From positions 22,112,786 to 22,176,785 of the forward strand of contig OZ020519.1 of the NCBI GenBank assembly GCA_963971425.1: a stretch of DNA of 64,000 nucleotides. The letters are read 5' to 3'. This DNA is from Bryoerythrophyllum caledonicum. Lineage: Eukaryota > Streptophyta > Bryopsida > Pottiales > Pottiaceae. The translations under genes were made by a program, and so were the position numbers. The notes under the pieces were generated by a model. The model was not told the origin of the DNA and did not search any database. It saw nothing but the letters and a program-made list of their open reading frames with translations. This document shows, piece by piece, positions 4,250-34,580 of this stretch (positions within the stretch are counted from its first letter, which is position 1; every line of letters begins with the position of its first letter).

Positions 4250-9037
<4,788 letters not shown>

Positions 9038-9780: not shown

Positions 9781-9796
9781 CATGTTTCGGCGAAGT

Positions 9797-10607: not shown

Positions 10608-10612
10608 ATTTA

Positions 10613-11005: not shown

Positions 11006-11123
11006 TAGCGGGATACCACCGCCACGCACCTTTCAAAAGCCCCATGCTCCAATTGCCATAATCAGCCGTACTTCACAATATCATATCTTCAAGGATCCCC
11101 ATTCCCCATCCTCTGCTAAAAAA

Positions 11124-14100
11124 TATGAGGCTGGATGGACTTCACCCAAAAAATAAGCTACACATACATCACACAAGCAAATGCATTCAAGGGAGCTTCA
11201 TCCTCCTCAATACCCCGCAAACTGCCACCCATCGTGACTATTTACTCGATAGAATAACTCGCGACACAAAATGAAATTCCTTCTTCAGAGCAAAAGCTCC
11301 AAGAAACAACTGCTGGAGGACCTGACTACAAACGATCACTAAAAATATTCAGCCCGTGTGAAACGACGTCTTGGTGGGTGCCAGAAACGCAACCATGCAA
11401 GAGATACATCAATATATGGGCGATTATTGTGAATCGATAGTTACAATTTGGAAGAATACCTCGGCCGAGCAATCTGGCGTACAGGCGACCACCCTACTCA
11501 TCCGGGCCTGAACCTCTACTCTAACTTACATATCGTCCTCCTCCGTCAGGGTCTTGAACGCGAAAGGGTGGAACTTGTAGCCGTCGCCCTGGTAGAACTT
11601 GTTCTGGAACTCCACCCAGTGCAGACGCAGCGCGTGCAGAAACGCGCTCAGTGTCTCCATCAGCAGCAGCACGCCGAACGTCACGAACGCGAACACGATC
11701 AGCCCGATCAGCCGCACCACCGGGTTCGAGTACCTGCAACCACCCCGCACCCGCGTCATCCACACCGCCCATTCACATCACCGCCCACCACACCGCGCGA
11801 CCAATATCCTCGCGGCTACTTCTACGCCGTCCCCACTACCCTCAACCCCTCATCGCAGATTGCCCATGGCGCTCGCCTTTATAGTCCAACTATCCATCCT
11901 AATCCATGCCATGCCAGAGCAATACTACTCCCCCCGAGAACCATGACCCCTTCCACCACAACCAATCGGACATCACCCACAACGACTTGCACGCACTACG
12001 ACCCCATCAACACACAACACACCACAACATCCTAAAACCAGGGCTGCCGCACGTACCCCCAAGCGAACAGCAGCACTCTGTCGTAGAACACCGCCGACAG
12101 CTGCGCATGTGCAAGACTGCAACACAAAACCACACAGCCCCACACCAACCATCAGTCCATCCATCTGCATCCGCCCCGCCCGCCAACCACCACTCCCTAC
12201 ACCCGCCACATCCCCATCGTCGCGCCCACCCATGCCCCACATACCTCAGTGCCCACAGCCGCAGATACGACGCCGTGTTCGACACCGCGCCCAGCACGAA
12301 CTCGATCGTGTGTATCATCTGGTGCACCAGAACCTCCCCGAACTCAAACTCCTCTTCCTCGTGCTCGCCGTCCACCTCCAAGTCCGTCGACTCCGTGTCC
12401 GACCCTCCCAGCACTCCGTAAGCTCTCCCTTGCATTTTCTGACCATTCCCACCCACCACAACCCACCACTCTCTTCAGTCCCCCCACCACACGGACCCCT
12501 CCCAGCCTCAACGTCACATGTCCAAAACCTTCCACACTAACCACGCCAAAAACCCAACAGACGCCACCGTTTCCGACCACTCAAAAATGCTGCGCTCCCA
12601 CTACCATCATTCCATCCTCCACATCCGATGATCTACTATAACAACAAACTCCTTACAAACTCCTCCAAGCCTCATGTCCAACAAACGCCAACTCAGGATA
12701 CACCGAAAACACGCCCACCAACAACCCGACACGCAACACCGCCACCCCACACCATCACACACCACGCTCAAACTGGCCTGTACCTGAATATGCTGCTTTC
12801 GCAATATCAGCGGCTTCGGGAGCAGCATCCACGGGACAGCCACCAGCGCCACCAAAAGCAGCACAATCTGCAACCCAACCAACAAATCCTCAATCACGCC
12901 CCCATTCTTCCACCATCGCCCCTACCCCCCCGCATCCTTAACCCCCAACCCACACCCACCATATTCCACGCCCAAACTAAACGTCCACCATCATCAAAAC
13001 CCAAACACCCCCCGCCAATCCACCATTCCCACCTGAACGTACGTCTGCCCCATGAACAGCTGGTTCTCCCCCAGATCCTCCGCCGGACTCAGAAACATGT
13101 AGATCATCACGTGGTACAGATCCGGCTTGCTCCCTTGGCACCACTTCAGCACGATCAGGAACGACAGGTACCCGAACAGCGCATTCAGGAACAGCAGCTG
13201 CGGAATGAACTGGTACCTGAACCCATCCAAACACCGACCCATCCACTTACCATCACGGAACCCCCGACCACAAACACATACACCACAGCTCGCTTCCCTG
13301 CTCCCTCGCCACATCAAACACACCACAATGCCACAATTCCGACTCTCCACTATCCCCTTCCCTTGCACTCGCATCTCAACCCTCAATGCCCACCATCCCA
13401 ACCGCCGCCGCCTAAACTCAACCCCCAACCAACCTCCCTCGACAACCCACCCCACCTCCACTTACCACACATCCAGCGCGCTCCGGAAGTATCTCGCGTT
13501 GAAGTAGCTCAGCACGATCCCCAGGTTCATCTGCGAGATCCCCAACAGAATCGACATCTTCATCTTCAACGAGTTCGTGAACGGCAGCTCCGACCGCGAC
13601 CCGTGCCACACCGGATCCACGCCGAACTCGTAAGGATCCGACCGGTACTTCTCCAAACCAGCCGTCGACGCCACCCTGCCATCCCACATCAACTCAGAAC
13701 ACACCTTCCCCGATCCATGCCCAAAACCACCCACCACTGCCCAAGAACCATCACCCACCCGGACTCCCATCCCTCCCAACACCCCCACCATCGCAAAAAA
13801 CACCAACACCACCACACCCACCCACCCACGCACACGCCAAAGAAAGCTTACGGGCAAGCCTCCCACGAGTACGCCGGGTCCGGACACCGGTACGCCGAAC
13901 CCCCAAAGATACCGAACGGCACCGAAAAAAACTCGTTGTAGATGAACCCCGTGTAGATCGAGAAGATGGCCATCAGAAGGATCACGTATCGCCCCCCGTA
14001 TGCCATCTGCATGATGTCGCCCAATTTCTGCACCCATCTCCCCACATTCAGCTCCATCCCAAAGGACCTCCACTCGCACACGAACCCAAACTCCCAACCC

Positions 14101-17100
14101 AACACCAACTCACGTTCTACCATTTCCCAAACCCCCCCCCCCCCCCAAAACAAAAACCTCGCGCTAATAGCTCACAACGCTACCACCAACGTCACACGAC
14201 CATCACCTGCTTTCCAAACTTCTTCTCGTTCGACACCAGATATAGCGCGCCCAAAAGCAGGCAAATTCCATGGCCCCAATCCCCGAACATCACCGCGAAC
14301 AGAAACGGGAATGTCACAACCGTGAAACAACCCGGATTCGCCTCCTGGTACCGCCCCACCCTGCACAACCACGACCGCCCCCACTCAATGCTGCGTCCCA
14401 AACCCATCAACTACTACCAACAACCCCAACCCTCCCACGTGCATCCCCCACCACTCACCCGTACGCTTCCACGATCTCCTGAAACGCACTCGTGAACTTG
14501 TTCGTCTCGAAGTACGTCGGCGGCGACTCCTTCGTGTGCAGCACTTGGAAGATCGTGTTCACCTGAGAGTTGCTGTCGTACGCCGCTCGCTGCAGAGCGT
14601 CCTGGATCTGCACCCCATAAGAAAAAACATCAGCCCAACCAACGCCTTCCACACACCCACGCACCACCACCCAAGCTCATCTCCACACTGCCCGATACTG
14701 CACGCCCACCACGGCCTCACCTTCGGCTTTGCCGACACCGGGCACCACCCCTCCGCCACCAGGCACTTCCGTGTCACGTCGATGCTCAACATGTTCAGCG
14801 TGTGGTACACCGCCTTCTCCCGCCTCACCTGCAACACCACACTTCCATCGTCAGCCTCCACCCTACCACTGTACCCGCTCGTCCCCAACCTCCCTCCAAC
14901 CACATCCTCGTCCCTCTAGAACAACCACCCAACCGGCACATCTCCCGCACCAATCTATCTCCACATCTCCCATACTACTCCTCGAACGCCGCTCACCATC
15001 ACCGTCCACTCCTCCAGGTTGTATCCGATGTTGTCCAACACGTTGTTCCTGTGCTGGATTCCCGCATCCAGCGTGTTCTGCAGCTCGCCCAGCCTCGACT
15101 CCACCTGAACAAAACCAACGCTCCCAAACTCAACAACAAATCCCCCAAACAACATCGTTACACCCCCTCCCACCACCGACCACACCCATCCCCCCATCAA
15201 CCGCAGCTGCTACCATCCCTACCTCCGACTTCATCTGCCACTGTCTGTTCGGATCCTCCGGGAAAGGATACCGGTTCGCCCCGAAAGCCTCGCAGATCTT
15301 CACCACCTTCGTCTTCGCACGCTCTCCGGCGAAGAACACCACGAACACCGTCTTCTCCACCTGCAACCGCCCCAATCCCCACATCAGCCCTCCAGAACAT
15401 ACTCCAGATTCAACCCCTACAACAACTCCGCTCATCCTTTCAACACCCCCCTCCCTTCTCACCGCTGCCCTCCCAAAACCAACCCAAAACAAACTCCCTC
15501 GTTCGCTACTCGCTACTCCACACGTCAACCAGCTGCCACTCAACTCTACATAGCCGCCAACCCTCGCCACCACTCAGCCAACTCAACAGGCCACCCTTCC
15601 AACGCAGCCCAACACCCTCCGCCTCCACCCCACACCCACCTTCTCGCCCGTCGCCGGATCGATCACAGCCTCCTCCACCGGGGCTTGCTTCAGAAACATG
15701 TTGCCTCGGGTCGCCCGGAACAAAATCCGCTCAAACGACGCCGCCTTCACCTTCGGGACCACCCCCGAGATGAACCCCAATCTCCCCTGCTTTGCAGGCT
15801 CGGTCTGCATCTCCTGTGACAACCACTCCCCTTAGAACCAGCTCCCCTCCACCCCAAAATCCCCAACCCCACCTACGCCCAACCACCAAACATCACACCA
15901 CACACCACCCCATCCATCTACGCTTCAAGCGACAGAAGCACACTGCACCTGCTCTTGCAGAAGCGGCCGGTCGATGGCCTCCTCGATCGAAGACCCATTC
16001 TCTGTATCTGCCCTCTGCTGCTGCACCGTCGTCGCTGCATTCCGAGCCGAACTGAAGAAACTGCCAGCCTGTCCATGTCCCCGTTCACCACCACTCACCA
16101 ATTCAGCCGCCACCAACTACTCACACGTCCCCACCCCTCGCCAATCTCACCCCTATCCCCTCAACCATCAAAAACCTACGACTCTCACCCACGCCCTTCA
16201 CTGCATCCAACCTCCACCCTACCCACTCTGCCAACGTCCACCTCCTCTACACCCGACTCTGCTCCTCCACACACCACTCGGCCTTCCCCCGACCGCTCAC
16301 CTTCTGCAGCACCAACTGGAGCTCTGTCAGCTCGCTGTGCGTGCGCTGAAGCTTGTCCGTGTTCGCATTGATCTCCAACAGCTCCGCCTCCAGCTCCGTC
16401 AGCCGACCCTCCACCTCGTCCAGGTCGATGTCCTTGTCCAGCATCGGCCTGTCCACCATCGGCCTGAAACCAGACGCCTGACCAGCTTTCGCGATCTGGT
16501 CCTGGAAGTACCGCAGCTTTCGACCCATCTCCCCGCATCGTTTCACCTGCCAGTACACAACACAACGTCATTCACCTCCACCACCACAGGGTGCACGACG
16601 AGGCAGGGATCCCGTTTCCAGCTCCCACCACCGGTGACGCATGGATACATAATGATAATCATAAAATAAACCAAATGAATCCTATCAGACAAGCTCCCAG
16701 CATACAAGCAAAACTGTAGAATCGCCCGCAGAAACCCACCTGATTAGCATACGTCCGCTGGAATGGACTCTTATCAGGGTTCAACTGCCACAACAAACAC
16801 CACCCACCCATCCGTCAGAACGAGCGCGCTCAGCATCCTGCAAATGTCACACATGATTCCCCCCACCACTTTCCCTTCGTCGTTCCACCGCCACAACGAT
16901 AACGAACTACATCAGCTCGGACGCGTCCAAGAGGCACGGCGCCTACTATTTGCTCAACTTCCGAACCAACCTCACCAACCTTTCCGGAGGCCACTCCTAC
17001 AACAGTTCAGCCCTAACAACGCCATTCAATCATGCCGGACTAAGGCATCAGATCCGCCATCCAATTCTACTGCCCACGATAGACCGGCCCATCCATCAGT

Positions 17101-18097
17101 CCCACCAGAGAACACGTCAAGCTTCACATGCTTCCGCTCGGTTAAAACCCTACGCGCATCCCAAACCCACAGCCTCTGCCTCATAACTCTACCCCGCCCA
17201 TGCTCAGGGTCTCGCCACCGCCTCTCACATCCTACACAACCCCAGCTCCCTCGCCGGGGTCCACTCGCCGTGCCCAATTCCACATCCGTACTGTTCCCAC
17301 GCCCCGGAACGTCCAATCTGTCCAAAACCCTAGCTGTCCCGGGGGTACCAAAAATTCGACCACCACGCTTCCCACGCCAAAACCTAGACGCGCAATCCAC
17401 TCCAAGCGAATGCTCACTCCAGCTCCCATCCGATCGAAGCGCACCAATCCACAACTCCCCCCGCCCGGGAATCCCATTCCATGAATTGCACGCCACCTAA
17501 GCGTGCGATCCCATCACACGCGCCCAGCCCTACACCGCCCACCGTCTCTCCTAATTCCGCCTCCGCCCTACCTACCGAGCCCCCCACGACGGGAATCCGA
17601 TCTAGACCGCCTCGGACGCCGTCCCACGCAACACAAAAACAAACAAAAACGAATACCCGAACAAACGGGACGAGGCACTCACGTCCTTGAACTGCAGCAT
17701 CCCCAGCTCCGCCAGGTACGTCACGGTGTCGTGCGCCGACTCCGCAGGGATGATCAGCTGCACCAGCGACATCTCCTCCGACCGGAACAGATCCATCGCC
17801 ACCATCGCTGACCGCCCGGCGCGAGGCCAATCCCCGCCCACTCCTGCCCTCCTTCGCGCCCGCGCGGCAATCTACTCGGCAACTGTGTTGTGAGCGCCCG
17901 GATGACCACACTTGGCTGCTACTGACGCGCGCGCGCGGGTGGAGCCCTGGAACACTTGGGCGGGCGATCCCAGCGAGCCCCTCGCGATGAAGCAAAGTGC
18001 GGTGAAGGAATTGGGGCAACCAAGTCGCCCATGGACTCGCTTCCCGCTGCCGCCCTACTACGTTAACATAACAAGTTTACGCGACGTGTATCAGCGA
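11124..18097 (-). repeat. Left arm of a 6,974-bp palindrome
   Basis: Every position p here pairs with 45286 minus p in the right arm (27189-34162). The pairing holds from end to end with no slip: the same overlapping reading frames recur with identical translations on both strands, and a 15-base homopolymer in the gene body has the same length in both arms. I found no mismatch, including in introns. The spacer between arms is 9,091 bp. The arm holds one full V-ATPase subunit a gene, about 290 bp of its upstream DNA and about 400 bp of its downstream DNA. Confidence 0.95.
11526..17805 (-). CDS. VHA-a: V-type H+-ATPase subunit a, left copy, complete, 17 exons
   Basis: Exons in transcription order: 17805-17683, 16784-16740, 16546-16301, 16068-15949, 15813-15640, 15360-15223, 15104-14997, 14828-14721, 14607-14459, 14360-14207, 14027-13852, 13675-13466, 13216-13033, 12867-12784, 12438-12245, 12116-12057 and 11733-11526. 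All introns are GT-AG; the CDS is 2,481 nt, 826 aa, normal for the family. Subunit a is the membrane stator of the Vo sector: its N-terminal half links to the V1 stalks and its multi-spanning C-terminal half forms the proton half-channels. Seen: [18 protein letters not shown]-terminus, [30 protein letters not shown], and the proton-path helix with the essential arginine (about R733) in SYLRLWAL. In the exon sequence I see no difference from the right copy. It converges on CDC48. Confidence 0.95.
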
Positions 18098-18237
18098 GCT
18101 TAGTAAAACCATTGCAATCTCCAGCCCGGTTCGGCGCTGCGACGCGGATTGCCTCCAGCTCGGTCCCTGGTTGGAAAACGGAAACGTGAAGCAGAAAGTA
18201 GTTCTTCCGAGGAAAGTCACCTCATTTAAATTTACTC
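18098..18237. repeat. Diverged homologous flank beyond the left palindrome arm
   Basis: Just outside the identical arm, this stretch still aligns with the complement of 27020-27188. Shared words include CTCCAGC.CCGGTTC.GCGC, ACGCGGA and GCAGAAAGTAGT.CTT, at roughly 70-80% identity with small insertions on the right side. It lies 290-430 bp upstream of the left VHA-a ATG, so it is probably promoter DNA. Confidence 0.8.
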
Positions 18238-18646
18238 TTACAGTACAGTTTTCCCCTGGGGGATCAAAGTTGAGTTTTATTTGCGTTCCTTTATCTCAGT
18301 TTTTGGCATGAGTTTTGAGAAATGAAAATTTTTATTGAATTGGCAACTTTTTATTAGCTTTCCGTTGAGATTTTTTTTGGGTTGAAATCCAACTTAGGCT
18401 TGAAAACAAACAATTCTCACTAACAAATTTGTTAGTGTAGCAATTTAGAGTGGCCTTCGGCTAATTGTGTGGTAAAAAATTGTTTAATTCTAAATTAACT
18501 AGAAATTAGAGTTATGGTTCAATTTTTAAATTAATTGTTTCCCCTTTGGAAAGAAATGGAAATCTTTGCATTTACTATCGGGATTTTTGAGTTTCAAAAC
18601 TATGAGAAATTTATGTTTCTCAGCACATACTTGCATTGCAGGATTC
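18238..18646. other. AT-rich spacer DNA, nothing recognised
   Basis: AT-rich sequence upstream of the piggyBac-like element. I see no gene or repeat structure here. Confidence 0.5.
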
Positions 18647-18650
18647 TTAA

Positions 18651-19450
18651 CCCTTTAGCGCCCAGGGATGTTTCTGGAGAAACCAAGAATTTTGCCGATT
18701 TTTTTCTTTGAACAGGAATTGATGGAAATACAATGACTAATATTAATATCTAACCTTACAAATTTGAACTTAACCCATGATCTCAACTTTGGGGAAATTT
18801 TGCACAACATCCAACCGTTGATGGAATAGATTATAGTGTTTAAAGTTACCGTATATTGGTAGTGAAAACTGTGGAATTTGGAGGGTGTACTACTTTAACT
18901 ATCAATAGAGTCTTGCAAGAATTTTTTTACTTTGAATTAGAGCAGTTCACATGTGCACTAGGTTGATAGCTTCGCATTGACATATTATGTGTGAAGAAAA
19001 TATTTATATCCAATTATTGGTGATTTTTTTTCTTTTTTCTACTTGGTTGTATACAAAAATGTTCCAACCTTATACGAATCAAAACGGAAGTTTCGTATGT
19101 GAGGAGAGAGGTCAACAATCACAAAACAATGAAGAATGTCTTAAAGACCAAGTTCAATCAAAATTTAAGACCAAAATCAATGTGCATATTTGTGAAATAC
19201 AACATAGTATGTGGCATAGTATTCACTGTATTCACTATATTTGAGTGTATTTGGTGTATTTTGTGTTGTATTCCTAGCTTTTCCAAGAGTTCTATAAATC
19301 CAAATCATGATATGATTGTTGGAGAGTGTTCGTGTAACGAGTGCGCAAATCTGAACCTCGTATCTCAAAGCCTAGTTCCTCATGGATTTCATGCAAATTG
19401 AGTTTGAGCACCTCCGGAGTCCCATTTCGGGCTTTCTGGGCGCTAAAAGG
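18651..19450. mobile_element. piggyBac-like non-autonomous element (TTAA target duplication)
   Basis: An 800-bp non-coding element flanked by TTAA at 18647-18650 and 19451-19454. The ends are CCCTTTAGCGCCCAG and its near-complement CTGGGCGCTAAAAGG. Exact TTAA flanks plus ends that begin CCC are the hallmark of the piggyBac superfamily. No transposase is present. About 370 bp further on, at 19787-19829, lies another end-like word (complement CTTAACCCCTAAAGTTCTTT) that matches the left end of the 215-bp element at 52758, so a second, related element may be truncated there. Confidence 0.65.
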
Positions 19451-20416
19451 TTAAGGACATCTTCAATCCCTCTTCTACTTCTAAAATTTGGTGCAAATGT
19501 GCCTAACATGATCTAATTTGAGTTGAAATTAGAAAATCACTGCTTGTAGTGCAAAATTTTGCTACAAATGGTGGTTAAAGTTTGTTGAAGGTGTTGAGTA
19601 TGACCTCAAAAAAAAAGATTTATGTCTCATTTTAACGGCAAATATCCTTCAATCAGTGTGGTGAAACCAGCCAATATGTTTACCACACACACTTGTACAA
19701 TCCTAGTACAAGATTCTAAGGTTAGATATCTAAAAAATGCAATCATTTACATTTTGTGTTGAATGCATTGAAATTGGCAGTTTTGGATGAGTTTGGGTGC
19801 TAAAATGCCAAAGAACTTTAGGGGTTAAGTAAATGATTCATGGTTGTGCTAATTCAGCCATTTTTTAGAATTATTAATATGCTCTTTTCTTTATTTGAAT
19901 GAAGTGTGAATGACTTTCTTTTTGGCATATTTGCATGCACCATACCGTGAACTTGCATTGTTTCCATTTTTTTGGAATGTATTTCATTTTAATATTGGAT
20001 ATTTTCTAATTTTCTAATTATTTTATTCAAAGAGTAACGTCACAATTGATAATTTTGATAGAAAATACAATATAACCTATAACTTTGATTGTTAAGGTAA
20101 TGATATGTTTTACTTAATTAGAGAACTACGTGTCATATAGTGGTTGAAGTTGAAGATTCTTCTTATGTACAATTTTTTTTTATATAGTATTCATAAAAAT
20201 AAACATTTCAATTAAGGAAGAAAAAATAAAAGAAGTTAAACAAGCATACAAGAAAGTACACCGACAGTTTATTTTTTGAATTAATAATAAATTCACGTGT
20301 AAAGAATGTATCTAATATACTACAAGACAAAAAAATCTTTCTCGTGCATTTTTTTGAAGTTGTTGTTCAACAACATCGTCAATAAGGTACTCGAGAGCCG
20401 CCATCACAAATAACAA

Positions 20417-20579
<163 letters not shown>

Positions 20580-21041
20580 GGCACTGTAGCAAGGATAAGT
20601 TTGAGATGAGCATAAATGTGAAAGGAAGGTTTTACACTCTTGATTTTGGTAAAACATCTCCATCTTATGTCTCTAGTCCTGGACGTCCAAAGAGAACATG
20701 GATTAGGCACCTGGACCTAATCATAGACCTTACGATTTCGGATTTAAATTCTAGATGAATTTTTAGATAGATCGGACGGTTTCCCATTTAGATCCACAAT
20801 GATTAGATCTTGTTCTACACTACCCACAAGTCTAAACTCTTAGAATGTTCATAATGAAATATAACTAAGTAGCTCGGCTAGATTAAGTAAGATCTAGAGG
20901 TATTTAGTCCCGATCTATACTACCCACAACTCTGAACTCCATAAAAAGAAACAAAACGGACTAAATCTCACCTTCAAGAACAAATTTTACCTACTACACA
21001 CATTTGGGTTGCACACATAGAGTTCACCCACTCCATCCATG
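20580..21041. other. Spacer DNA, nothing recognised
   Basis: About 460 bp between the CAA tract and the Tc1-like element, with scattered GATCTAGA/TCTAGA words (tagatcggacg, agatctagagg). No gene seen. Confidence 0.5.
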
Positions 21042-21043
21042 TA

Positions 21044-23818
21044 CAATAGGGTGACATTCAAATTGGCCGTTTAGTAGTTCCAGGGATAGTGTCCTACACT
21101 GCTGCCAACTTTGACACCCTCCCCAAAGCTGAGATTGTTATTTTACCATGAAAATTTGGAGACAGCATCATCTTTATGTTGAAAACATGCATACCAAATT
21201 TCAAGTCCAGAAGACTTATACAAAAAAACTTATGCAAGATCTACCAACATGGGATAGCTGTGAGAAAAGTGTCACAGCTACCAACTTTGACACCCTCCCA
21301 AGAATTGAGGAAATTTTTTTTGCCCATGAAATTTTTGGAGCAAAAACATTTTTATGTTGTTTGCATGTGTGGAAAATTTCAAGTCCAAAAGACCCATACA
21401 AAAAATAATATTCCAAATCTACCAACATGTGTAGTTTTGAGAAACAAAGGGGAAAACCATTTTACTACTTCCAACTTTGACGCCCTCTTTAGGATTGAGT
21501 TTTTGATGATACATAGTGAAATTTTTGGCACAAGATCATCTCTACGCTGGTAACATGTGGGATAAATTTCAAAGCCAAAAGACATACATAAAAAAAGTTA
21601 TTCCATGTCTATCAACATGTGTAACTATGATAAACAATTTGAAGGTCATATTGAAAATGTCAAAATATCTTTGACACCTCATGCTTTTTCATTGAACTCA
21701 ATCATGTGAGTAAGCCACCAAACATAAATGCTTCTCAAAAAGATCAATAACATCTAAATGAAGAAGTGAAAAGGTGTTCCATGCAGAAGAATCCACTTGG
21801 CCATAAAGTGTGCATTAGACACATGACAAATTTTTTCTTCTAAATATCTATTGAACACTATGTAAAGGGAATGGTGTGTGTGATTTGTGATAGACTGAAT
21901 GTTGAGACAATCCTCAAAACAGAGAGTGTTGTATTGTGGGATGCATGAGTGTTGATTCACATTGGGCATACATAATGAGTGATTAAGAGCAAAACGATTT
22001 TTCATGTATGCATATGGGCTTGTGTTTTGGCGACCCTTCTCTCTCCTCTCTGCTCCAACGCCTTGGCTCCCTTCTCTCCCCCTTGCTCTATTCCAGCCCT
22101 GTTCTCCTTCCTCTGCCAATTGTCACGTGTCAATCCTGCAACCCCCTTTGCTCTGCTCTAGCCCCTTGGCCCCCTTCTCTCCCCCTCGCTCTGCTCTAAC
22201 CCCTACTCTACTGCTGTAGCTAGCATCACGCACTCTGTAAGTTTATGATGGCAATTTCAGATGAAATTTGTGCTCGCATCATAGGTTTGAGTGAGGGAGG
22301 ATTTACAGGAGTTCAAATTGCAGGTACTATTGGAGTTCCTATTAGAACAGCTACAAGGTTAGTAAAAACATTTAGAGAAGATGGAACCTACAAGCGCAAA
22401 CCTTGCGGTGGAAGTCACGCTAAAAAGCTTAGTGATAGAGATGTTCGTAGTATTGTGCATTACTCAAAAATTCATCGTTGCTCTTCACTCTCAGAGATTA
22501 CCAATGCATGTCCTACTCAAGTGTGTAGATGTACTATTCAAAGGGTCTTACATAAAAATGGCATTTTTAGTCGAATTGCAGTCAAAAAACCTTTTTTGAC
22601 ACCTCGTCACATGTCTCAACGATTAGCTTTTGTTCAGAAGTATCGTGGATGGAGTGCAAAAGAGTGGGAGCGTGTTGTTTGGACAGATGAATCTACTTTT
22701 GAAATTGGAAAAAATTCTCGGCAAATTCATGTTCGGAGAAGTGCATACGAGCGTTATTCATTAAGTTGTCTAGTTCCTACTTTTAAAAAAGGAAGGACTT
22801 CTTTAATGATTTGGGGCGCACTTGCCGGAAGACAAAAGTCAGAACTTGTCTTTATGCCTAAAGGTCAACGTTCAACTAAGGATTTTATAGAAGTGGTTTA
22901 CGATGCCAAATTGGTTTATTTCATGGGTCAAATTCCACAACGAGTGCTTATGGAAGATGGGCACCCGTCCATAGGAGCAAAATATGTGAAGAATGGAGAC
23001 AAAGCCACCTTCTCGAAAAGCTCAACTGGCCTGCAAACTCTCCCGATCTCAATCCAATCGAGAACGTTTGGAGGATGTTAAAAGATGTTGTGCAACATGG
23101 CAAACAATGCCCTAGAAGCTTAGATGTGTTGAAGGTAGTTCTTGAAAGAGAGTGGAAGTTAGTCAATGGTACAAAGCTCCTTCAACTATGTCATTCTATG
23201 CCCTCTAGGTTATTAGCAGTGATTGACGCTAATGGAGAACATACACGTTGGTAGATATGGAATAATTTTTTTGTGTATATCTTTTGGCTTTGAAATTTAT
23301 CTCACATGCTACCAGCGTAGAGATGATCTTGTGCCAAAAATTTCACTATGTATCAACAAAAACTCAATCCTAAGGAGGGCGTCAAAGTTGGAAGTAGTAA
23401 AATGGTTTTCCCCTTTGTTTCTCAAAACTACACATGTTGGTAGATTTGGAATATTATTTTCTGTATGGGTCTTTTGGACTTGAAATTTTCCACACATGCA
23501 AACAACATAAAAATGTTTTTGCTCCAAAAATTTCATGGGCAAAAAAAATTTCCTCAATTCTTGGGAGGGTGTCAAAGTTGGTAGCTGTGACACTTTTCTC
23601 ACAGCTATCCCATGTTGGTAGATCTTGCATAAGTTTTTTTGTATAAGTCTTCTGGACTTGAAATTTGGTATGCATGTTTTCAACATAAAGATGATGCTGT
23701 CTCCAAATTTTCATGGTAAAATAACAATCTCAGCTTTGGGGAGGGTGTCAAAGTTGGCAGCAGTGTAGGACACTATCCCTGGAACTACTAAACGGCCAAT
23801 TTGAATGTCACCCTATTG
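21044..23818 (+). mobile_element. Tc1-like DNA transposon with long compound inverted repeats
   Basis: A 2,775-bp element beginning CAATAGGGTGACATTCAAAT and ending with its complement, flanked by TA (21042-21043, 23819-23820). The inverted repeats are about 575 bp, paired without slip (positions sum to 44862), near-identical at the outside and more diverged toward the inside. Each repeat consists of three tandem, diverged units of about 180 bp. In the left repeat each unit starts with CCAACTTTGAC (21105, 21281, 21471). It encodes one transposase on the plus strand. A C/T-rich leader (22020-22220, many CTCTCC/CCCTTG words) lies before the ATG and may be its promoter. The family call rests on the TA duplication and the transposase. 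Confidence 0.9.
22245..23254 (+). pseudogene. Tc1/mariner (DD34E-type) transposase, one frameshift
   Basis: From the ATG at 22245, residues 1-110 carry two helix-turn-helix motifs (AGTIGVPIRTATRLVKTFRE, then a second around VCRCTIQRVLHKNGI). The catalytic core follows: first Asp in VWTDESTFEIG, a WGA block, second Asp in VLMEDGHPS. The frame then shifts near 22995, apparently by loss of one base in an A-rich run, and the rest reads LNWPANSPDLNPIENVWRML in the next frame. The second Asp to the Glu is 34 residues when read through, the Tc1 spacing. It ends at TAG 23252-23254, inside the inner edge of the right inverted repeat. One recent lesion in an otherwise clean gene suggests either very recent death or a sequencing slip. 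It cuts and pastes DNA at TA sites. Confidence 0.85.
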
Positions 23819-23820
23819 TA

Positions 23821-24113
23821 CAATCGAGCCCTAAATGTCTAGTCTTGCTATAGCTCCTCGCTAACACACAAACTCTACCTCCAAAACTCTACGCTGCACC
23901 CTTGTACACCTCCTATACTACACCAAACAATCAAATAATTGAAAGGGATGAGAGCATCAACCCTCAACCCCTTCCAAATGACAATCGTTGTCTAGATGGA
24001 AGGAAACTAGTCCGAACTAAAATTCATATAAACTACCCATTTCATCGACATATGTCATGTTTCATCCAATATGTTTGATTTTCATTCAGCAGATCCAATT
24101 TACTAGACCTCTA
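23821..24113. other. Spacer DNA, nothing recognised
   Basis: About 290 bp between two transposons. No gene, repeat or element end is seen. Confidence 0.5.
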
Positions 24114-24320
24114 CACTAAAATTGGTATTTAGTGTGACACTACATTTAATGTTACAACATCTCTTTACCACCCAACTCTAAATATATTTTTCTAGACATT
24201 TAGTGTTACGGCTCATTAATTAACATCTACTTCCTAAGGTTTTAGTAATTACTCATTAATTAATTCATTAATTTATTAAGGTTCTCCTAACCTTAGAAAA
24301 TAGATTTAATAATGAATATG

Positions 24321-24700
24321 TTAATTAATAATTAAATATGTTAATTAATAATTAAATATGTTAATTAATAATTAAATATGTTAATTAATAATTAAATATG
24401 TTAATTAATAATTAAATATGTTAATTAATAATTAAATATGTTAATTAACAATTAAATATGTTAATTAATAATTAAATATGTTAATTAATAATTAAATATG
24501 TTAATTAATAATTAAATATGTTAATTAATAATTAAATATGTTAATTAATAATTAAATATGTTAATTAATAATTAAATATGTTAATTAATAATTAAATATG
24601 TTAATTAATAATTAAATATGTTAATTAATAATTAAATATGTTAATTAATAATTAAATATGTTAATTAATAATTAAATATGTTAATTAATAATTAAATATG
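24321..24700. repeat. 20-bp AT minisatellite, 19 units
   Basis: Nineteen head-to-tail copies of TTAATTAATAATTAAATATG, identical except for a T-to-C change in one unit (24441-24460). There are no unique spacers, so it is not a CRISPR array. It lies inside the CACTA-ended element. Confidence 0.97.
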
Positions 24701-24795
24701 TTTATTAATGAACATGTTAATTTATTATTAGTTTATTATTAATATATTAATTTATTAATATATTAGTATATTAATTTATTAATTTATTAGTATAT

Positions 24796-25074
24796 TAATT
24801 TATTAATTTATTAATTTATTAATTTATTAATTTATTAATTTATTAATTTATTAATTTATTAATTTATTAATTTATTAATTTATTAATTTATTAATTTATT
24901 AATTTATTAATTTATTAATTTATTAATTTATTAATTTATTAATTTATTAATTTATTAATTTATTAATTTATTAATTTATTAATTTATTAATTTATTAATT
25001 TATTAATTTATTAATTTATTAATTTATTAATTTATTAATTTATTAATTTATTAATTTATTAATTTATTAATTTA
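24796..25074. repeat. 8-bp AT satellite (TTAATTTA)n
   Basis: About 35 near-perfect units of an 8-bp AATTTATT word, preceded by variant units with TATTAGTA. Very low melting and hairpin-prone. Confidence 0.95.
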
Positions 25075-25486
25075 TTTTTATTTTATTAGTTTATTAGTTT
25101 ATTATTAGTTTATTATTAATTTATTTTGTTAATTAATTATTAATAATTTATTATGCTAACTAATTAGATTTAATATGTTAGTTAATTAACATATTAATTA
25201 CTAATTAATTTATTAAGGTTTTCCTAACCTTAGGAAGTATATTTAACCTCTATTAAAATTGTTATTTCTCAATTTCTTATAAATTGTTTTGTCTTTAATA
25301 ACACTAAATGTAGAGGTAGTAAAACTTTAAAGTTACAATTCTCTGCATTTAGTGTTGATGTTGACATTTAGTGTTGTAACATTATCGTCGTTGTTGATAT
25401 ATTGATATGTTGTTTTGTTGATATGTTGTTTATATAGTGTTAAGGTTCGTAATTAGTGTCTTGAACACTAAATACCAATTTTAGTG

Positions 25487-26254
25487 TACCAAAAAATATA
25501 TATTATTCCACCTTTCCTTTACAATGCCGTTGATTACCCAGTTAACAATGAGTAACAACCCGTGCTGTGCATTTATGTGTTGCATGAGTTGATGCTCTTT
25601 TTGTTTAGAGGATGTCACTAATGATTTTAGCAATTGTTTTGGGTTGGGTTTTTGGATACTTTTTTGAGAGAGGAAAAGTGATGCACTTATCTATTGTAAG
25701 ATGAGGCACATGATTTTTGAAAGGTGGGATTTTTGTCAAGGTGGGACATTTTTCTCTTGTTTGAGCTGGATTTGAGGTTTGGGATCTAGTTTTGGAGGGT
25801 TTTGCTTTTGGAAGTGAAGCCGTTGGATTTTGTAATAAATCTCCCAAATCAAAATTTTAAAATGTCAAGTTTTGACACCAATTTTTAAATTTCAAGATCC
25901 TCATAGACCCGTGACATTATCTTTTGGTTTGTTATGTCCATAATAAAAGGATATGGTGTAACAAGGAAATAGAAGAATTCCTCCAAACCTATTTTAATTA
26001 TTAACAATATATACAAAAATTAGTAAAAAAGAGAGTAATATATTTGTTTTCTTGGTTGTGCATTTGGAGGCCACATGTGTACAACGTCGCTTGTGAACAC
26101 TTCTTGTTTTCAATTCTATTTCTTTTTAACATCATAATCAACCCATGACAAAGAGTATTGTATAACGGACACTATATTGTCGAACGGACACTATATTCAC
26201 GCCAACCCATAGAGGTCTGGTGTTCTTCTTCTTCTTCTTATTGTACAACGCAGC
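25487..26254. other. AT-rich spacer DNA, nothing recognised
   Basis: No supportable gene. An 80-residue minus-strand open frame at 25605-25847 is lysine/proline-rich with no domain that I recognise. Confidence 0.5.
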
Positions 26255-26497
26255 ATGTGGATGAGCCACACAAATTGGATGACGTCCATCTCATGCGCAA
26301 TTGAAAAGCCCAAGATTCTAGTGTCATGTTTCTACGACAAGTCCATCATTCTGTGGAGGCTCATGTTTCACCCACCTATGCACCTAGGGAGGTATCAGAT
26401 TGTTTCCAGTTTTGGCAAAGGTGATGGTATCCTGGCATTCCTACACATGAAACATACTCAACATAATTATGCATGTTGCCATGGCTCCAAGAAATAA
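26255..26497 (+). pseudogene. RACK1-like WD40 fragment
   Basis: An 80-residue frame containing HTNWMTSISCAIEKPKILVS followed closely by YDKSIILWRL. In the Gbeta-like scaffold RACK1 the first WD repeat reads HTD.VTAIAT....(D/E)..V(T/S)..RDKSIILW.L, and DKSIILW is distinctive for it. Similarity stops after about 33 residues; the rest is unrecognised. With one blade at most it cannot form a propeller. It may be a retrocopied or transposon-carried scrap. Another WD40 protein is the main alternative. Confidence 0.5.
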
Positions 26498-27019
26498 ATG
26501 CAAGAGAAATGTATATATATATATATAGTATTATCAAATATATTCTTCACAAATAAGCTTGTTAACAAAAATAAAAAGAGTACTTCTGATATATTTTCAA
26601 AACCCGTTCTGTAACTTCTTCTACATCCCTTACTTTCATAATTGGAACGTTTGTTTTAATAAGTGAGTTTTGAATATTAGAGGAATCTTCAAGTTTAACT
26701 ACAATAATACACTTAGTTCCTTAATTAAGTAAAACATATCATTCCCTCTACTGATGTATTTCGAGGTTGTATTCTACATTCTATCACATTATAAATTGTG
26801 ATTGTACTCTTTGAATCCATTCATCTGATTTTTCTACAAAATTTCCCCCTAATATTAAGATAAAATACATTAAAAAAATGGAAACAATAAAGTTCACGGA
26901 GGGTGCATGCAGATATGCTAAAAAAAAAAAAGAAGCCATGTCGGACTTCAAACGAATAGAAGAAAGACCATACTGTATAAATAATTTCCAAAATAGACCA
27001 AATTAGCACAACCTTGCCT
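26498..27019. other. AT-rich spacer DNA
   Basis: A short TA dinucleotide run near 26513-26526. Otherwise nothing recognised up to the diverged VHA-a flank. Confidence 0.5.
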
Positions 27020-27188
27020 TGAATAATTCGAGTGAAGTGACGTGTCAGTGAAAGTACTACTTTCTGCTTTTACTTTGACTTTTTGCAACCCGAGGGCCTC
27101 CTTAAGTTCATTGGTCGCGGAGCGCGATTCGAGGTATTCCGCGTGGCAGCGCAGAACCGGTGCTGGAGTTCGCGATGGCTCTGCTATT
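27020..27188. repeat. Diverged homologous flank beyond the right palindrome arm
   Basis: The complement of this stretch aligns with 18098-18237 (see that entry). It carries about 25-30 extra bases in the middle (around 27070-27110). It is the upstream region of the right VHA-a copy, 290-460 bp before its ATG. Confidence 0.8.
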
Positions 27189-30100
27189 TCGCTGATACAC
27201 GTCGCGTAAACTTGTTATGTTAACGTAGTAGGGCGGCAGCGGGAAGCGAGTCCATGGGCGACTTGGTTGCCCCAATTCCTTCACCGCACTTTGCTTCATC
27301 GCGAGGGGCTCGCTGGGATCGCCCGCCCAAGTGTTCCAGGGCTCCACCCGCGCGCGCGCGTCAGTAGCAGCCAAGTGTGGTCATCCGGGCGCTCACAACA
27401 CAGTTGCCGAGTAGATTGCCGCGCGGGCGCGAAGGAGGGCAGGAGTGGGCGGGGATTGGCCTCGCGCCGGGCGGTCAGCGATGGTGGCGATGGATCTGTT
27501 CCGGTCGGAGGAGATGTCGCTGGTGCAGCTGATCATCCCTGCGGAGTCGGCGCACGACACCGTGACGTACCTGGCGGAGCTGGGGATGCTGCAGTTCAAG
27601 GACGTGAGTGCCTCGTCCCGTTTGTTCGGGTATTCGTTTTTGTTTGTTTTTGTGTTGCGTGGGACGGCGTCCGAGGCGGTCTAGATCGGATTCCCGTCGT
27701 GGGGGGCTCGGTAGGTAGGGCGGAGGCGGAATTAGGAGAGACGGTGGGCGGTGTAGGGCTGGGCGCGTGTGATGGGATCGCACGCTTAGGTGGCGTGCAA
27801 TTCATGGAATGGGATTCCCGGGCGGGGGGAGTTGTGGATTGGTGCGCTTCGATCGGATGGGAGCTGGAGTGAGCATTCGCTTGGAGTGGATTGCGCGTCT
27901 AGGTTTTGGCGTGGGAAGCGTGGTGGTCGAATTTTTGGTACCCCCGGGACAGCTAGGGTTTTGGACAGATTGGACGTTCCGGGGCGTGGGAACAGTACGG
28001 ATGTGGAATTGGGCACGGCGAGTGGACCCCGGCGAGGGAGCTGGGGTTGTGTAGGATGTGAGAGGCGGTGGCGAGACCCTGAGCATGGGCGGGGTAGAGT
28101 TATGAGGCAGAGGCTGTGGGTTTGGGATGCGCGTAGGGTTTTAACCGAGCGGAAGCATGTGAAGCTTGACGTGTTCTCTGGTGGGACTGATGGATGGGCC
28201 GGTCTATCGTGGGCAGTAGAATTGGATGGCGGATCTGATGCCTTAGTCCGGCATGATTGAATGGCGTTGTTAGGGCTGAACTGTTGTAGGAGTGGCCTCC
28301 GGAAAGGTTGGTGAGGTTGGTTCGGAAGTTGAGCAAATAGTAGGCGCCGTGCCTCTTGGACGCGTCCGAGCTGATGTAGTTCGTTATCGTTGTGGCGGTG
28401 GAACGACGAAGGGAAAGTGGTGGGGGGAATCATGTGTGACATTTGCAGGATGCTGAGCGCGCTCGTTCTGACGGATGGGTGGGTGGTGTTTGTTGTGGCA
28501 GTTGAACCCTGATAAGAGTCCATTCCAGCGGACGTATGCTAATCAGGTGGGTTTCTGCGGGCGATTCTACAGTTTTGCTTGTATGCTGGGAGCTTGTCTG
28601 ATAGGATTCATTTGGTTTATTTTATGATTATCATTATGTATCCATGCGTCACCGGTGGTGGGAGCTGGAAACGGGATCCCTGCCTCGTCGTGCACCCTGT
28701 GGTGGTGGAGGTGAATGACGTTGTGTTGTGTACTGGCAGGTGAAACGATGCGGGGAGATGGGTCGAAAGCTGCGGTACTTCCAGGACCAGATCGCGAAAG
28801 CTGGTCAGGCGTCTGGTTTCAGGCCGATGGTGGACAGGCCGATGCTGGACAAGGACATCGACCTGGACGAGGTGGAGGGTCGGCTGACGGAGCTGGAGGC
28901 GGAGCTGTTGGAGATCAATGCGAACACGGACAAGCTTCAGCGCACGCACAGCGAGCTGACAGAGCTCCAGTTGGTGCTGCAGAAGGTGAGCGGTCGGGGG
29001 AAGGCCGAGTGGTGTGTGGAGGAGCAGAGTCGGGTGTAGAGGAGGTGGACGTTGGCAGAGTGGGTAGGGTGGAGGTTGGATGCAGTGAAGGGCGTGGGTG
29101 AGAGTCGTAGGTTTTTGATGGTTGAGGGGATAGGGGTGAGATTGGCGAGGGGTGGGGACGTGTGAGTAGTTGGTGGCGGCTGAATTGGTGAGTGGTGGTG
29201 AACGGGGACATGGACAGGCTGGCAGTTTCTTCAGTTCGGCTCGGAATGCAGCGACGACGGTGCAGCAGCAGAGGGCAGATACAGAGAATGGGTCTTCGAT
29301 CGAGGAGGCCATCGACCGGCCGCTTCTGCAAGAGCAGGTGCAGTGTGCTTCTGTCGCTTGAAGCGTAGATGGATGGGGTGGTGTGTGGTGTGATGTTTGG
29401 TGGTTGGGCGTAGGTGGGGTTGGGGATTTTGGGGTGGAGGGGAGCTGGTTCTAAGGGGAGTGGTTGTCACAGGAGATGCAGACCGAGCCTGCAAAGCAGG
29501 GGAGATTGGGGTTCATCTCGGGGGTGGTCCCGAAGGTGAAGGCGGCGTCGTTTGAGCGGATTTTGTTCCGGGCGACCCGAGGCAACATGTTTCTGAAGCA
29601 AGCCCCGGTGGAGGAGGCTGTGATCGATCCGGCGACGGGCGAGAAGGTGGGTGTGGGGTGGAGGCGGAGGGTGTTGGGCTGCGTTGGAAGGGTGGCCTGT
29701 TGAGTTGGCTGAGTGGTGGCGAGGGTTGGCGGCTATGTAGAGTTGAGTGGCAGCTGGTTGACGTGTGGAGTAGCGAGTAGCGAACGAGGGAGTTTGTTTT
29801 GGGTTGGTTTTGGGAGGGCAGCGGTGAGAAGGGAGGGGGGTGTTGAAAGGATGAGCGGAGTTGTTGTAGGGGTTGAATCTGGAGTATGTTCTGGAGGGCT
29901 GATGTGGGGATTGGGGCGGTTGCAGGTGGAGAAGACGGTGTTCGTGGTGTTCTTCGCCGGAGAGCGTGCGAAGACGAAGGTGGTGAAGATCTGCGAGGCT
30001 TTCGGGGCGAACCGGTATCCTTTCCCGGAGGATCCGAACAGACAGTGGCAGATGAAGTCGGAGGTAGGGATGGTAGCAGCTGCGGTTGATGGGGGGATGG

Positions 30101-33100
30101 GTGTGGTCGGTGGTGGGAGGGGGTGTAACGATGTTGTTTGGGGGATTTGTTGTTGAGTTTGGGAGCGTTGGTTTTGTTCAGGTGGAGTCGAGGCTGGGCG
30201 AGCTGCAGAACACGCTGGATGCGGGAATCCAGCACAGGAACAACGTGTTGGACAACATCGGATACAACCTGGAGGAGTGGACGGTGATGGTGAGCGGCGT
30301 TCGAGGAGTAGTATGGGAGATGTGGAGATAGATTGGTGCGGGAGATGTGCCGGTTGGGTGGTTGTTCTAGAGGGACGAGGATGTGGTTGGAGGGAGGTTG
30401 GGGACGAGCGGGTACAGTGGTAGGGTGGAGGCTGACGATGGAAGTGTGGTGTTGCAGGTGAGGCGGGAGAAGGCGGTGTACCACACGCTGAACATGTTGA
30501 GCATCGACGTGACACGGAAGTGCCTGGTGGCGGAGGGGTGGTGCCCGGTGTCGGCAAAGCCGAAGGTGAGGCCGTGGTGGGCGTGCAGTATCGGGCAGTG
30601 TGGAGATGAGCTTGGGTGGTGGTGCGTGGGTGTGTGGAAGGCGTTGGTTGGGCTGATGTTTTTTCTTATGGGGTGCAGATCCAGGACGCTCTGCAGCGAG
30701 CGGCGTACGACAGCAACTCTCAGGTGAACACGATCTTCCAAGTGCTGCACACGAAGGAGTCGCCGCCGACGTACTTCGAGACGAACAAGTTCACGAGTGC
30801 GTTTCAGGAGATCGTGGAAGCGTACGGGTGAGTGGTGGGGGATGCACGTGGGAGGGTTGGGGTTGTTGGTAGTAGTTGATGGGTTTGGGACGCAGCATTG
30901 AGTGGGGGCGGTCGTGGTTGTGCAGGGTGGGGCGGTACCAGGAGGCGAATCCGGGTTGTTTCACGGTTGTGACATTCCCGTTTCTGTTCGCGGTGATGTT
31001 CGGGGATTGGGGCCATGGAATTTGCCTGCTTTTGGGCGCGCTATATCTGGTGTCGAACGAGAAGAAGTTTGGAAAGCAGGTGATGGTCGTGTGACGTTGG
31101 TGGTAGCGTTGTGAGCTATTAGCGCGAGGTTTTTGTTTTGGGGGGGGGGGGGGGTTTGGGAAATGGTAGAACGTGAGTTGGTGTTGGGTTGGGAGTTTGG
31201 GTTCGTGTGCGAGTGGAGGTCCTTTGGGATGGAGCTGAATGTGGGGAGATGGGTGCAGAAATTGGGCGACATCATGCAGATGGCATACGGGGGGCGATAC
31301 GTGATCCTTCTGATGGCCATCTTCTCGATCTACACGGGGTTCATCTACAACGAGTTTTTTTCGGTGCCGTTCGGTATCTTTGGGGGTTCGGCGTACCGGT
31401 GTCCGGACCCGGCGTACTCGTGGGAGGCTTGCCCGTAAGCTTTCTTTGGCGTGTGCGTGGGTGGGTGGGTGTGGTGGTGTTGGTGTTTTTTGCGATGGTG
31501 GGGGTGTTGGGAGGGATGGGAGTCCGGGTGGGTGATGGTTCTTGGGCAGTGGTGGGTGGTTTTGGGCATGGATCGGGGAAGGTGTGTTCTGAGTTGATGT
31601 GGGATGGCAGGGTGGCGTCGACGGCTGGTTTGGAGAAGTACCGGTCGGATCCTTACGAGTTCGGCGTGGATCCGGTGTGGCACGGGTCGCGGTCGGAGCT
31701 GCCGTTCACGAACTCGTTGAAGATGAAGATGTCGATTCTGTTGGGGATCTCGCAGATGAACCTGGGGATCGTGCTGAGCTACTTCAACGCGAGATACTTC
31801 CGGAGCGCGCTGGATGTGTGGTAAGTGGAGGTGGGGTGGGTTGTCGAGGGAGGTTGGTTGGGGGTTGAGTTTAGGCGGCGGCGGTTGGGATGGTGGGCAT
31901 TGAGGGTTGAGATGCGAGTGCAAGGGAAGGGGATAGTGGAGAGTCGGAATTGTGGCATTGTGGTGTGTTTGATGTGGCGAGGGAGCAGGGAAGCGAGCTG
32001 TGGTGTATGTGTTTGTGGTCGGGGGTTCCGTGATGGTAAGTGGATGGGTCGGTGTTTGGATGGGTTCAGGTACCAGTTCATTCCGCAGCTGCTGTTCCTG
32101 AATGCGCTGTTCGGGTACCTGTCGTTCCTGATCGTGCTGAAGTGGTGCCAAGGGAGCAAGCCGGATCTGTACCACGTGATGATCTACATGTTTCTGAGTC
32201 CGGCGGAGGATCTGGGGGAGAACCAGCTGTTCATGGGGCAGACGTACGTTCAGGTGGGAATGGTGGATTGGCGGGGGGTGTTTGGGTTTTGATGATGGTG
32301 GACGTTTAGTTTGGGCGTGGAATATGGTGGGTGTGGGTTGGGGGTTAAGGATGCGGGGGGGTAGGGGCGATGGTGGAAGAATGGGGGCGTGATTGAGGAT
32401 TTGTTGGTTGGGTTGCAGATTGTGCTGCTTTTGGTGGCGCTGGTGGCTGTCCCGTGGATGCTGCTCCCGAAGCCGCTGATATTGCGAAAGCAGCATATTC
32501 AGGTACAGGCCAGTTTGAGCGTGGTGTGTGATGGTGTGGGGTGGCGGTGTTGCGTGTCGGGTTGTTGGTGGGCGTGTTTTCGGTGTATCCTGAGTTGGCG
32601 TTTGTTGGACATGAGGCTTGGAGGAGTTTGTAAGGAGTTTGTTGTTATAGTAGATCATCGGATGTGGAGGATGGAATGATGGTAGTGGGAGCGCAGCATT
32701 TTTGAGTGGTCGGAAACGGTGGCGTCTGTTGGGTTTTTGGCGTGGTTAGTGTGGAAGGTTTTGGACATGTGACGTTGAGGCTGGGAGGGGTCCGTGTGGT
32801 GGGGGGACTGAAGAGAGTGGTGGGTTGTGGTGGGTGGGAATGGTCAGAAAATGCAAGGGAGAGCTTACGGAGTGCTGGGAGGGTCGGACACGGAGTCGAC
32901 GGACTTGGAGGTGGACGGCGAGCACGAGGAAGAGGAGTTTGAGTTCGGGGAGGTTCTGGTGCACCAGATGATACACACGATCGAGTTCGTGCTGGGCGCG
33001 GTGTCGAACACGGCGTCGTATCTGCGGCTGTGGGCACTGAGGTATGTGGGGCATGGGTGGGCGCGACGATGGGGATGTGGCGGGTGTAGGGAGTGGTGGT

Positions 33101-34162
33101 TGGCGGGCGGGGCGGATGCAGATGGATGGACTGATGGTTGGTGTGGGGCTGTGTGGTTTTGTGTTGCAGTCTTGCACATGCGCAGCTGTCGGCGGTGTTC
33201 TACGACAGAGTGCTGCTGTTCGCTTGGGGGTACGTGCGGCAGCCCTGGTTTTAGGATGTTGTGGTGTGTTGTGTGTTGATGGGGTCGTAGTGCGTGCAAG
33301 TCGTTGTGGGTGATGTCCGATTGGTTGTGGTGGAAGGGGTCATGGTTCTCGGGGGGAGTAGTATTGCTCTGGCATGGCATGGATTAGGATGGATAGTTGG
33401 ACTATAAAGGCGAGCGCCATGGGCAATCTGCGATGAGGGGTTGAGGGTAGTGGGGACGGCGTAGAAGTAGCCGCGAGGATATTGGTCGCGCGGTGTGGTG
33501 GGCGGTGATGTGAATGGGCGGTGTGGATGACGCGGGTGCGGGGTGGTTGCAGGTACTCGAACCCGGTGGTGCGGCTGATCGGGCTGATCGTGTTCGCGTT
33601 CGTGACGTTCGGCGTGCTGCTGCTGATGGAGACACTGAGCGCGTTTCTGCACGCGCTGCGTCTGCACTGGGTGGAGTTCCAGAACAAGTTCTACCAGGGC
33701 GACGGCTACAAGTTCCACCCTTTCGCGTTCAAGACCCTGACGGAGGAGGACGATATGTAAGTTAGAGTAGAGGTTCAGGCCCGGATGAGTAGGGTGGTCG
33801 CCTGTACGCCAGATTGCTCGGCCGAGGTATTCTTCCAAATTGTAACTATCGATTCACAATAATCGCCCATATATTGATGTATCTCTTGCATGGTTGCGTT
33901 TCTGGCACCCACCAAGACGTCGTTTCACACGGGCTGAATATTTTTAGTGATCGTTTGTAGTCAGGTCCTCCAGCAGTTGTTTCTTGGAGCTTTTGCTCTG
34001 AAGAAGGAATTTCATTTTGTGTCGCGAGTTATTCTATCGAGTAAATAGTCACGATGGGTGGCAGTTTGCGGGGTATTGAGGAGGATGAAGCTCCCTTGAA
34101 TGCATTTGCTTGTGTGATGTATGTGTAGCTTATTTTTTGGGTGAAGTCCATCCAGCCTCATA
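27189..34162 (+). repeat. Right arm of a 6,974-bp palindrome
   Basis: Exact inverted counterpart of 11124-18097 as far as I can check by eye. The inner boundary is sharp: the next base outward differs and diverged homology follows. At the outer boundary the sequence after 34162 shows only faint resemblance to the complement of 11040-11123 (GCAG.GGA, ATATTG, TTATG), not enough to claim homology. Confidence 0.95.
27481..33760 (+). CDS. VHA-a: V-type H+-ATPase subunit a, right copy, complete, 17 exons
   Basis: Exons: 27481-27603, 28502-28546, 28740-28985, 29218-29337, 29473-29646, 29926-30063, 30182-30289, 30458-30565, 30679-30827, 30926-31079, 31259-31434, 31611-31820, 32070-32253, 32419-32502, 32848-33041, 33170-33229 and 33553-33760. 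The predicted 826-aa protein matches the left copy. The start is the first in-frame ATG ([12 protein letters not shown]); a second ATG three codons on is possible. Exons 2-4 give [15 protein letters not shown] and the N-terminal coiled coil rich in [14 protein letters not shown]. Exons 10-17 carry the membrane domain, and [20 protein letters not shown] precedes SLAHAQLS at the exon 15/16 joint. Intron 1 is the longest (898 bp). Known role: stator and proton channel of the V-ATPase at vacuole or TGN membranes; which membrane cannot be told from sequence. The upstream arm is CpG-rich with a (CG)n run at 27350-27360. Confidence 0.96.
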
Positions 34163-34580
34163 ATGAAGGGCAGTGGAAATGTTGTTCCGTCTTCATTATA
34201 TTGGTTATGCCTGTTAGTCTTATTTGTAGTAACGCTCAACTCAGTTTGATATTTTTTTTTATGAATTTTTAAATCAATTGTGCATGTATTTTCAGTGGCG
34301 ATGAGAAATAGTTGTACAACAGGAGCTTTTTACCGAAGTTAGCTTCCAGATCTACATGAACTCTCATAAAATAGCAAGAACACAACCACAAGCTCATATA
34401 GTTGCAACAAGCATATAGCACAAAGTTTCCATTGAAATTATGAATTAGAAAAATCCACAATAATTTATATGTGCAACAAGCCTCTACGATTCTTTATGGT
34501 CAAATTGATTTCTATTGCATTTTAAATGTAGAAAACAAGACTAAAGATTACTAAACACCTTTACAACTCACTGATTCAAC
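34163..34580. other. Downstream flank of the right arm, nothing recognised
   Basis: About 420 bp, AT-rich. No gene seen between the palindrome end and the Tc1-like transposase fragment. Confidence 0.5.

Follow-up and report, generated by a model that had tools for sequence, protein, structure and literature searches.

Identical inverted copies of a V-ATPase subunit a gene beside diverged homologous shoulders in Bryoerythrophyllum caledonicum: a palindrome with probable arm-to-arm gene conversion

How do two inverted copies of a gene come to be identical in their introns as well as in their exons? The question is raised by a palindrome in the window, the whole 64,000-nucleotide stretch of DNA analysed here (C7:22112786-22176785, in a 437-Mb genome of 894 contigs). 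An earlier note on this DNA had described a 23-kb palindrome with seemingly identical 6,974-bp arms and no indel or mismatch that could be found, a 9.1-kb spacer and a complete 826-aa gene in each arm, both pointing outward, and all of this was borne out. The arms (11124-18097 and 34162-27189) are complementary at 6974/6974 positions, position i pairing with 45286-i in one unbroken run with no gap; the spacer (18098-27188) measures 9091 bp, and a 17-exon gene model, with splice sites picked by hand from candidate sites, accounts for the 826-aa product of each outward-pointing gene. The arm edges are sharp at both ends, and no N is found between the arms, the sole N run of the window being located at 53532-53731 (200 N). 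The arms and their genes are as follows.

11124..18097, minus strand: left arm of the palindrome, 6974/6974 complementary to 27189-34162
27189..34162, plus strand: right arm of the palindrome, 6974/6974 complementary to the left arm
11526..17805, minus strand: V-ATPase subunit a gene, left copy, 17 exons, 826 aa (gene model with 16 GT-AG introns; PF01496 pieces over the cut-off; PDB subunit a3 chain at 1240 bits)
27481..33760, plus strand: V-ATPase subunit a gene, right copy, identical to the left one (arm identity and gene model)

The product matches the PDB chain named V-type proton ATPase subunit a3 at 1240 bits over residues 3-824 and the chain named subunit a1 at 1169 bits; the top chain under the name 116 kDa subunit a 1 reaches 750 bits. 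The a3 and a1 chains we take to be plant proteins, and the scores support the assignment of the gene to the plant-type a subunits, in agreement with the plant V-ATPase gene proposed in the earlier note; the plant origin of the DNA is also reflected in the AtpB gene on contig C894, whose three top-scoring chains bear the name chloroplastic ATP synthase beta or that of ATP synthase beta chain (976, 966 and 884 bits, then 709). This result points to a plant or green alga, which we read as a streptophyte, partly from a resemblance of its organelle proteins to those of Marchantia. Pieces of PF01496 (V_ATPase_I) span positions 28 to 815 of 815 in both arms. In a genome search with this family that scored 55 of 1039 candidates, the 30 matching pieces listed all fall at the two arms or at one paralogue at C4:28.74 Mb, which shares about 41-86% identity with the arm gene exon by exon among the exons aligned. 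Additionally, a 1-kb arm query against the same genome returned two full copies and one 190-bp stretch at 70% on C4.

The identity of the arms is not confined to the coding sequence, and includes 3799 bp of introns, both gene ends and about 290-400 bp beyond each coding end. The V-ATPase a protein is conserved, and strong purifying selection might keep two old genes alike; however, since the introns are identical too, selection on the protein cannot explain the arms, and this explanation is rejected as having next to no probability.

The arms stop at 18097 and 27189, 292 bp upstream of the start codon, and homology continues past these points. This weaker homology (about 73-80%), absent from the earlier note, runs on inward from both arms and defines two shoulders, the left one interrupted by an insertion.

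18098..18237, no strand assigned: first part of the left shoulder, homologous to the right one but diverged, beginning 293 bp upstream of the ATG (BLAST blocks 45/56 and 31/39 identical)
18238..19827, no strand assigned: about 1.6 kb inserted into the left shoulder, its ends located in 10-bp steps (shoulder alignment), holding the repeat 18646-19454
19828..20362, no strand assigned: second part of the left shoulder, likewise homologous to the right one but diverged, with 19839-20172 at 73% (BLAST E 2e-50; two genome places found)
26484..27188, no strand assigned: right shoulder, diverged homologue of the left shoulder (BLAST, genome search and alignment)

Three BLAST blocks lie in the same order and orientation in both shoulders: 45/56 (80%, E 1e-8), 31/39 (79%, E 0.001) and 257/352 (73%, E 2e-50). 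With the left insertion skipped, about 700 bp align end to end and 492 of the 628 aligned positions are identical (78%, K2P 0.257). The alignment score of 493.5 compares to a maximum of 87.5 in 200 shuffles, which were aligned without re-optimising over the insertion boundary. The insertion holds an 809-bp repeat (18646-19454) with at least 39 other copies at 95-97% among the 45 matches listed, in a genome search that scored 40 of 5255 candidates. The shoulders themselves behave differently: in a search that passes over simple repeats and very common words, each shoulder probe gave two matches across the 437-Mb genome, one at its own position and one at the opposite shoulder (2/2 candidates each), and no third copy was found. 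A repeat family is therefore rejected: the shoulders are an old inverted duplication, and at least this part of it is far older than the arms look. A rule-of-three estimate from 0 differences in 6974 positions puts the 95% upper bound on arm divergence near 0.0004 per site, smaller than the divergence of the shoulders by a factor of several hundred. The contrast between the identical arms and the far more diverged homologous sequence just beyond them gives p = 2e-154 in a Fisher test.

The earlier note had left three readings side by side: a very recent duplication, ongoing conversion between the arms, or an assembly that copied one consensus into both. The diverged inner shoulders without a third copy argue against the first of these in its plain form, a recent segmental duplication of a single-copy locus, and favour the second. 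Arm-to-arm gene conversion of an old inverted pair is, in our judgement, the best reading and probably the correct one. The V-ATPase subunit a gene and about 700 bp of upstream DNA would have been duplicated in inverted orientation long ago, the gene itself presumably being part of that old duplication. The two halves of the spacer would then have diverged to a K2P of about 0.26 and acquired transposons, while one gene was overwritten from the other, most recently at a date so close that 6974 bp show no difference. The cause would be a break in one arm repaired from the other arm, probably a recurring event, and the inverted layout would tolerate it, as a crossover between the arms merely flips the spacer.

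The outer sides of the palindrome are less favourable to conversion. Sequence is unrelated at once beyond 11124 and 34162, where no diverged shoulder is found, and a BLAST comparison of 5001-11123 with 34163-41000 returned one 24-bp match (E 0.035). These abrupt outer edges require a conversion tract running exactly to the end of the old duplication. Additionally, 7 kb without one difference is long for a single conversion tract. The left outer flank holds a repeat at about 9.4-9.9 kb (38 other main matches among the 46 listed), and other elements populate the flanks and the spacer.

34286..35010, no strand assigned: member of a repeat family, located 123 bp beyond the right arm and matching DDE_3 (PF13358) on the minus strand (at least 39 other copies at 80-88% among the 41 matches listed)
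5307..8390, plus strand: CDC48-like exons of a neighbouring gene (domain match and comparison with a second copy)
21040..23822, plus strand: Tc1/mariner-like transposon in the spacer (581-bp inverted repeats 98.1% alike; transposase ORF 22245-23081; TA at both ends)
24306..25216, no strand assigned: AT-rich minisatellite in the right half of the spacer (repeat analysis)

The TA at both ends of the transposon is consistent with a TA target duplication, and its 581-bp inverted repeats are unusually long, with internal repeats at 72%. Elsewhere in the window, a 183-bp tandem repeat (1.9 copies, 87%, 51730-52085) lies inside a 410-aa minus-strand open frame that gave no Pfam match at E 0.001.

Since the edges are one-sided, homologous inside and unrelated outside, the main rival explanation stays alive: the gene may have been duplicated in inverted orientation only recently, primed by a short inverted repeat of much older date. 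We regard this as possible, though on the unlikely side. Here only the upstream region of ~700 bp would have been duplicated long ago; later, a broken end at one repeat would have invaded the other, and 7 kb of outward copying through the gene (break-induced replication or template switching) would have finished at a non-homologous junction. A single such event would account for the perfect arms, for the change to 73-80% within a homologous tract and for the abrupt outer edges, and the available text of PMC3966223 carries a warning that recent duplication should not be dismissed on diverged flanks alone. On the other hand, priming needs an old inverted copy of the promoter side of the gene alone, ending by chance at the gene. 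Moreover, the shoulders are slightly more alike beside the gene (79-80%) than farther off (73%), as if both sides had long served a gene, a slight difference that points only faintly the same way.

The third reading places the identity in the assembly: two real inverted copies might have had small arm differences equalised by the assembler or polisher, or the second arm might be a false copy. Artefacts of this kind do occur in the present assembly, where an inverted pair with identical scores (C1:27322782 and 27327319) flanks a 200-N gap with overlapping contig ends. Long single-base G runs are prone to error and mutation, and a run of 15 G in an arm intron has equal length in both arms, as an equalised assembly would also give. 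The palindrome itself, however, contains no gap, and a false copy can create neither shoulders differing at 20-27% of sites nor two unrelated outer flanks; even if the arms were 1% apart, conversion or priming would still be required, given shoulders 22% apart. We therefore hold an assembly effect to be quite unlikely. At the C1 locus (C1:27322600-27327599), likely an assembly artefact, the inverted copies on the two sides of the 200-N gap are 99.8% alike and the contig ends overlap by 1.1 kb in direct orientation.

The arms also have an extreme strand composition. On the coding strand the arm introns contain 46.7% G and 10.7% C (GC 57.4%, GC skew +0.63), and the third codon positions of the gene contain 59% G at 83% GC; the introns of the C4 paralogue have 39.1% GC, 18.5% C and a skew of +0.05. 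GC in the arm introns is thus raised relative to the paralogue through G alone, with C depleted. Over the arms the skew averages 0.47 at 58% GC. Among 362 one-kilobase windows from other fetched loci (223 kb, a non-random set retrieved as repeats and gene families), three exceed a skew of 0.4, all with GC below 0.43, and none adds GC above 0.5; the two coincide in 0 of 378 windows from the remainder of the window, arms and spacer excepted. Skew reaches 0.31-0.32 at the ATP synthase beta loci, 0.33 at the locus of the CDC48 copy and 0.18-0.24 in the CDC48 kilobases of the window. Because C is depleted, GC-biased conversion is unsupported as the source of the high arm GC, and the composition looks instead like a strand-specific, transcription-linked bias; that it lacks the plain mark of GC-biased conversion counts against the conversion reading. 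Heavy transcription of the very G-rich strand, through R-loops and breaks, may in turn promote conversion. CG dinucleotides in the arm introns are not depleted (observed/expected 1.05).

Other duplications in the genome offer a comparison. The CDC48-like gene has a second copy on C7 (C7:19598000-19607999, 2.5 Mb off), 89.4% alike over 4 kb to window positions 5354-9362. On C8, two ATP synthase beta genes in inverted orientation match at 91-92% over some 2.1 kb, a single 414-bp piece reaching 99%. Neither of these two duplications is equalised as the V-ATPase arms are. Near-identity occurs outside palindromes too, which is a point against the conversion reading: copies of a dispersed 2.8-kb segment share 99.7% between C15 and C11, and 96.4% between C15 and C2. 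All three copies contain a stretch resembling ATP synthase beta that seems to be truncated and may be part of a gene carried by a mobile element. Separately, 3648 bp with a plastid-type AtpA gene are identical between C8 (14471264) and C894 (21686); C894 is probably the plastid, and the identity would represent a very recent plastid insertion or a misassembly.

Arm-to-arm conversion belongs to an already established class of mechanism, to which the V-ATPase pair would add a member. The nearest known system is the palindromic pair Amy-p/Amy-d of Drosophila, where the genes are in concerted evolution and the flanks appear to evolve independently. Both pairs are palindromic, with genes more alike than their diverging flanks; unlike the V-ATPase arms, which are identical through introns and about 290-400 bp outside each coding end, homogenisation in the melanogaster group is confined to the coding sequence, according to the available text of PMC3924832. 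The same source describes Drosophila Hsp70Aa/Hsp70Ab as mirror-image linked genes with ectopic conversion, whose inverted layout is thought to limit copy-number change; this resembles the V-ATPase layout, whereas the case concerns animal heat-shock genes and is backed by other species and by shared silent polymorphism (PMC3924832, in part). In Caenorhabditis elegans, the inverted hsp16-1/hsp16-48 modules are 100% identical with diverged flanks, read by the authors as conversion, as far as the available portion of PMC3966223 describes them. The module there is 1.9 kb with a 416-bp spacer, compared to 7-kb arms and a 9.1-kb spacer here, and because the inner flanks here are still recognisably homologous, the V-ATPase case goes beyond the Caenorhabditis cases in that portion of the paper. 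Among plants, palindromes with evidence of arm-to-arm conversion are described on the W chromosome of Salix purpurea; these differ from the present one, since two palindromes over 200 kb lie there in a sex-determination region and their arm parts measure about 14-73 kb (PMC7023750, from the text available). Mammalian X palindromes have arms >99% identical, kept so by frequent conversion, and differ in being large, sex-linked and subject to GC-biased conversion, the latter not clearly seen here (PMC8981503, likewise in part). Among the open-licence papers listed in our searches, judged by title and opening of the abstract, none dealt with conversion of V-ATPase genes, and none described a comparable gene palindrome on a plant autosome.

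A palindrome without mismatches is readily put down to an artefact or to a recent duplication. Here the diverged shoulders date the structure independently of the arms, so that the locus can show how two copies of an essential gene stay identical while the DNA upstream of them drifts. The extreme G bias of one strand also makes it possible to test whether transcription, breakage and conversion are linked. Should the other inverted housekeeping pairs prove similar, copying within a chromosome would count as a general means of upkeep in the plant lineage concerned, rather than as something peculiar to sex chromosomes.

A survey of orientation in five families bears on this, with domain bit scores standing in for identity and neighbours taken within 500 kb. 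In the first four families, inverted orientation was observed in 10/11 neighbours with identical scores vs 2/9 others. PF00504, for which the outcome was predicted beforehand, gave 6/9 vs 6/14 (Fisher p 0.40), in the predicted direction without significance. Pooled over the five, a total that includes the four families that prompted the idea, 16 of 20 identical-score neighbours are inverted compared to 8 of 23 with differing scores (Fisher p 0.005). The tally leaves out 5 of 44 and 8 of 29 rows of two listings (small or organellar contigs) and takes in 4 of the 30 PF01496 rows, and three other listings (77, 48 and 58 rows) were entered whole. Identical scores are a weak stand-in for identity, as the C8 ATP synthase beta pair has them with only 91-92% of its DNA alike, and the 16 inverted cases include at least one artefact, the C1 gap pair; the link between identical scores and inversion across the genome is therefore a lead only. 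Other inverted pairs are formed by EF2-like genes (C2:9.88/9.95 Mb) and HSP70-like genes (C2:35.22/35.28 Mb). An inverted tubulin pair on C9 has differing scores.

A wider reading, which we hold to be unlikely, is that the genome keeps housekeeping genes as mirror-image pairs and copies arm onto arm, with transcription of a strongly G-skewed strand as the trigger. With the same low probability, the pairs concerned would be the V-ATPase a genes, probable EF1-alpha genes in alternating orientation, and genes for EF2-like, HSP70-like and chlorophyll a/b proteins. If true, sex-chromosome palindromes would have their equivalent throughout this genome, in an arrangement that may fit a mostly haploid life cycle.

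At C10:24187517-24398237, five PF00009 copies, probably EF1-alpha, have identical domain scores and frames of 461-462 aa, and the last four alternate in orientation.
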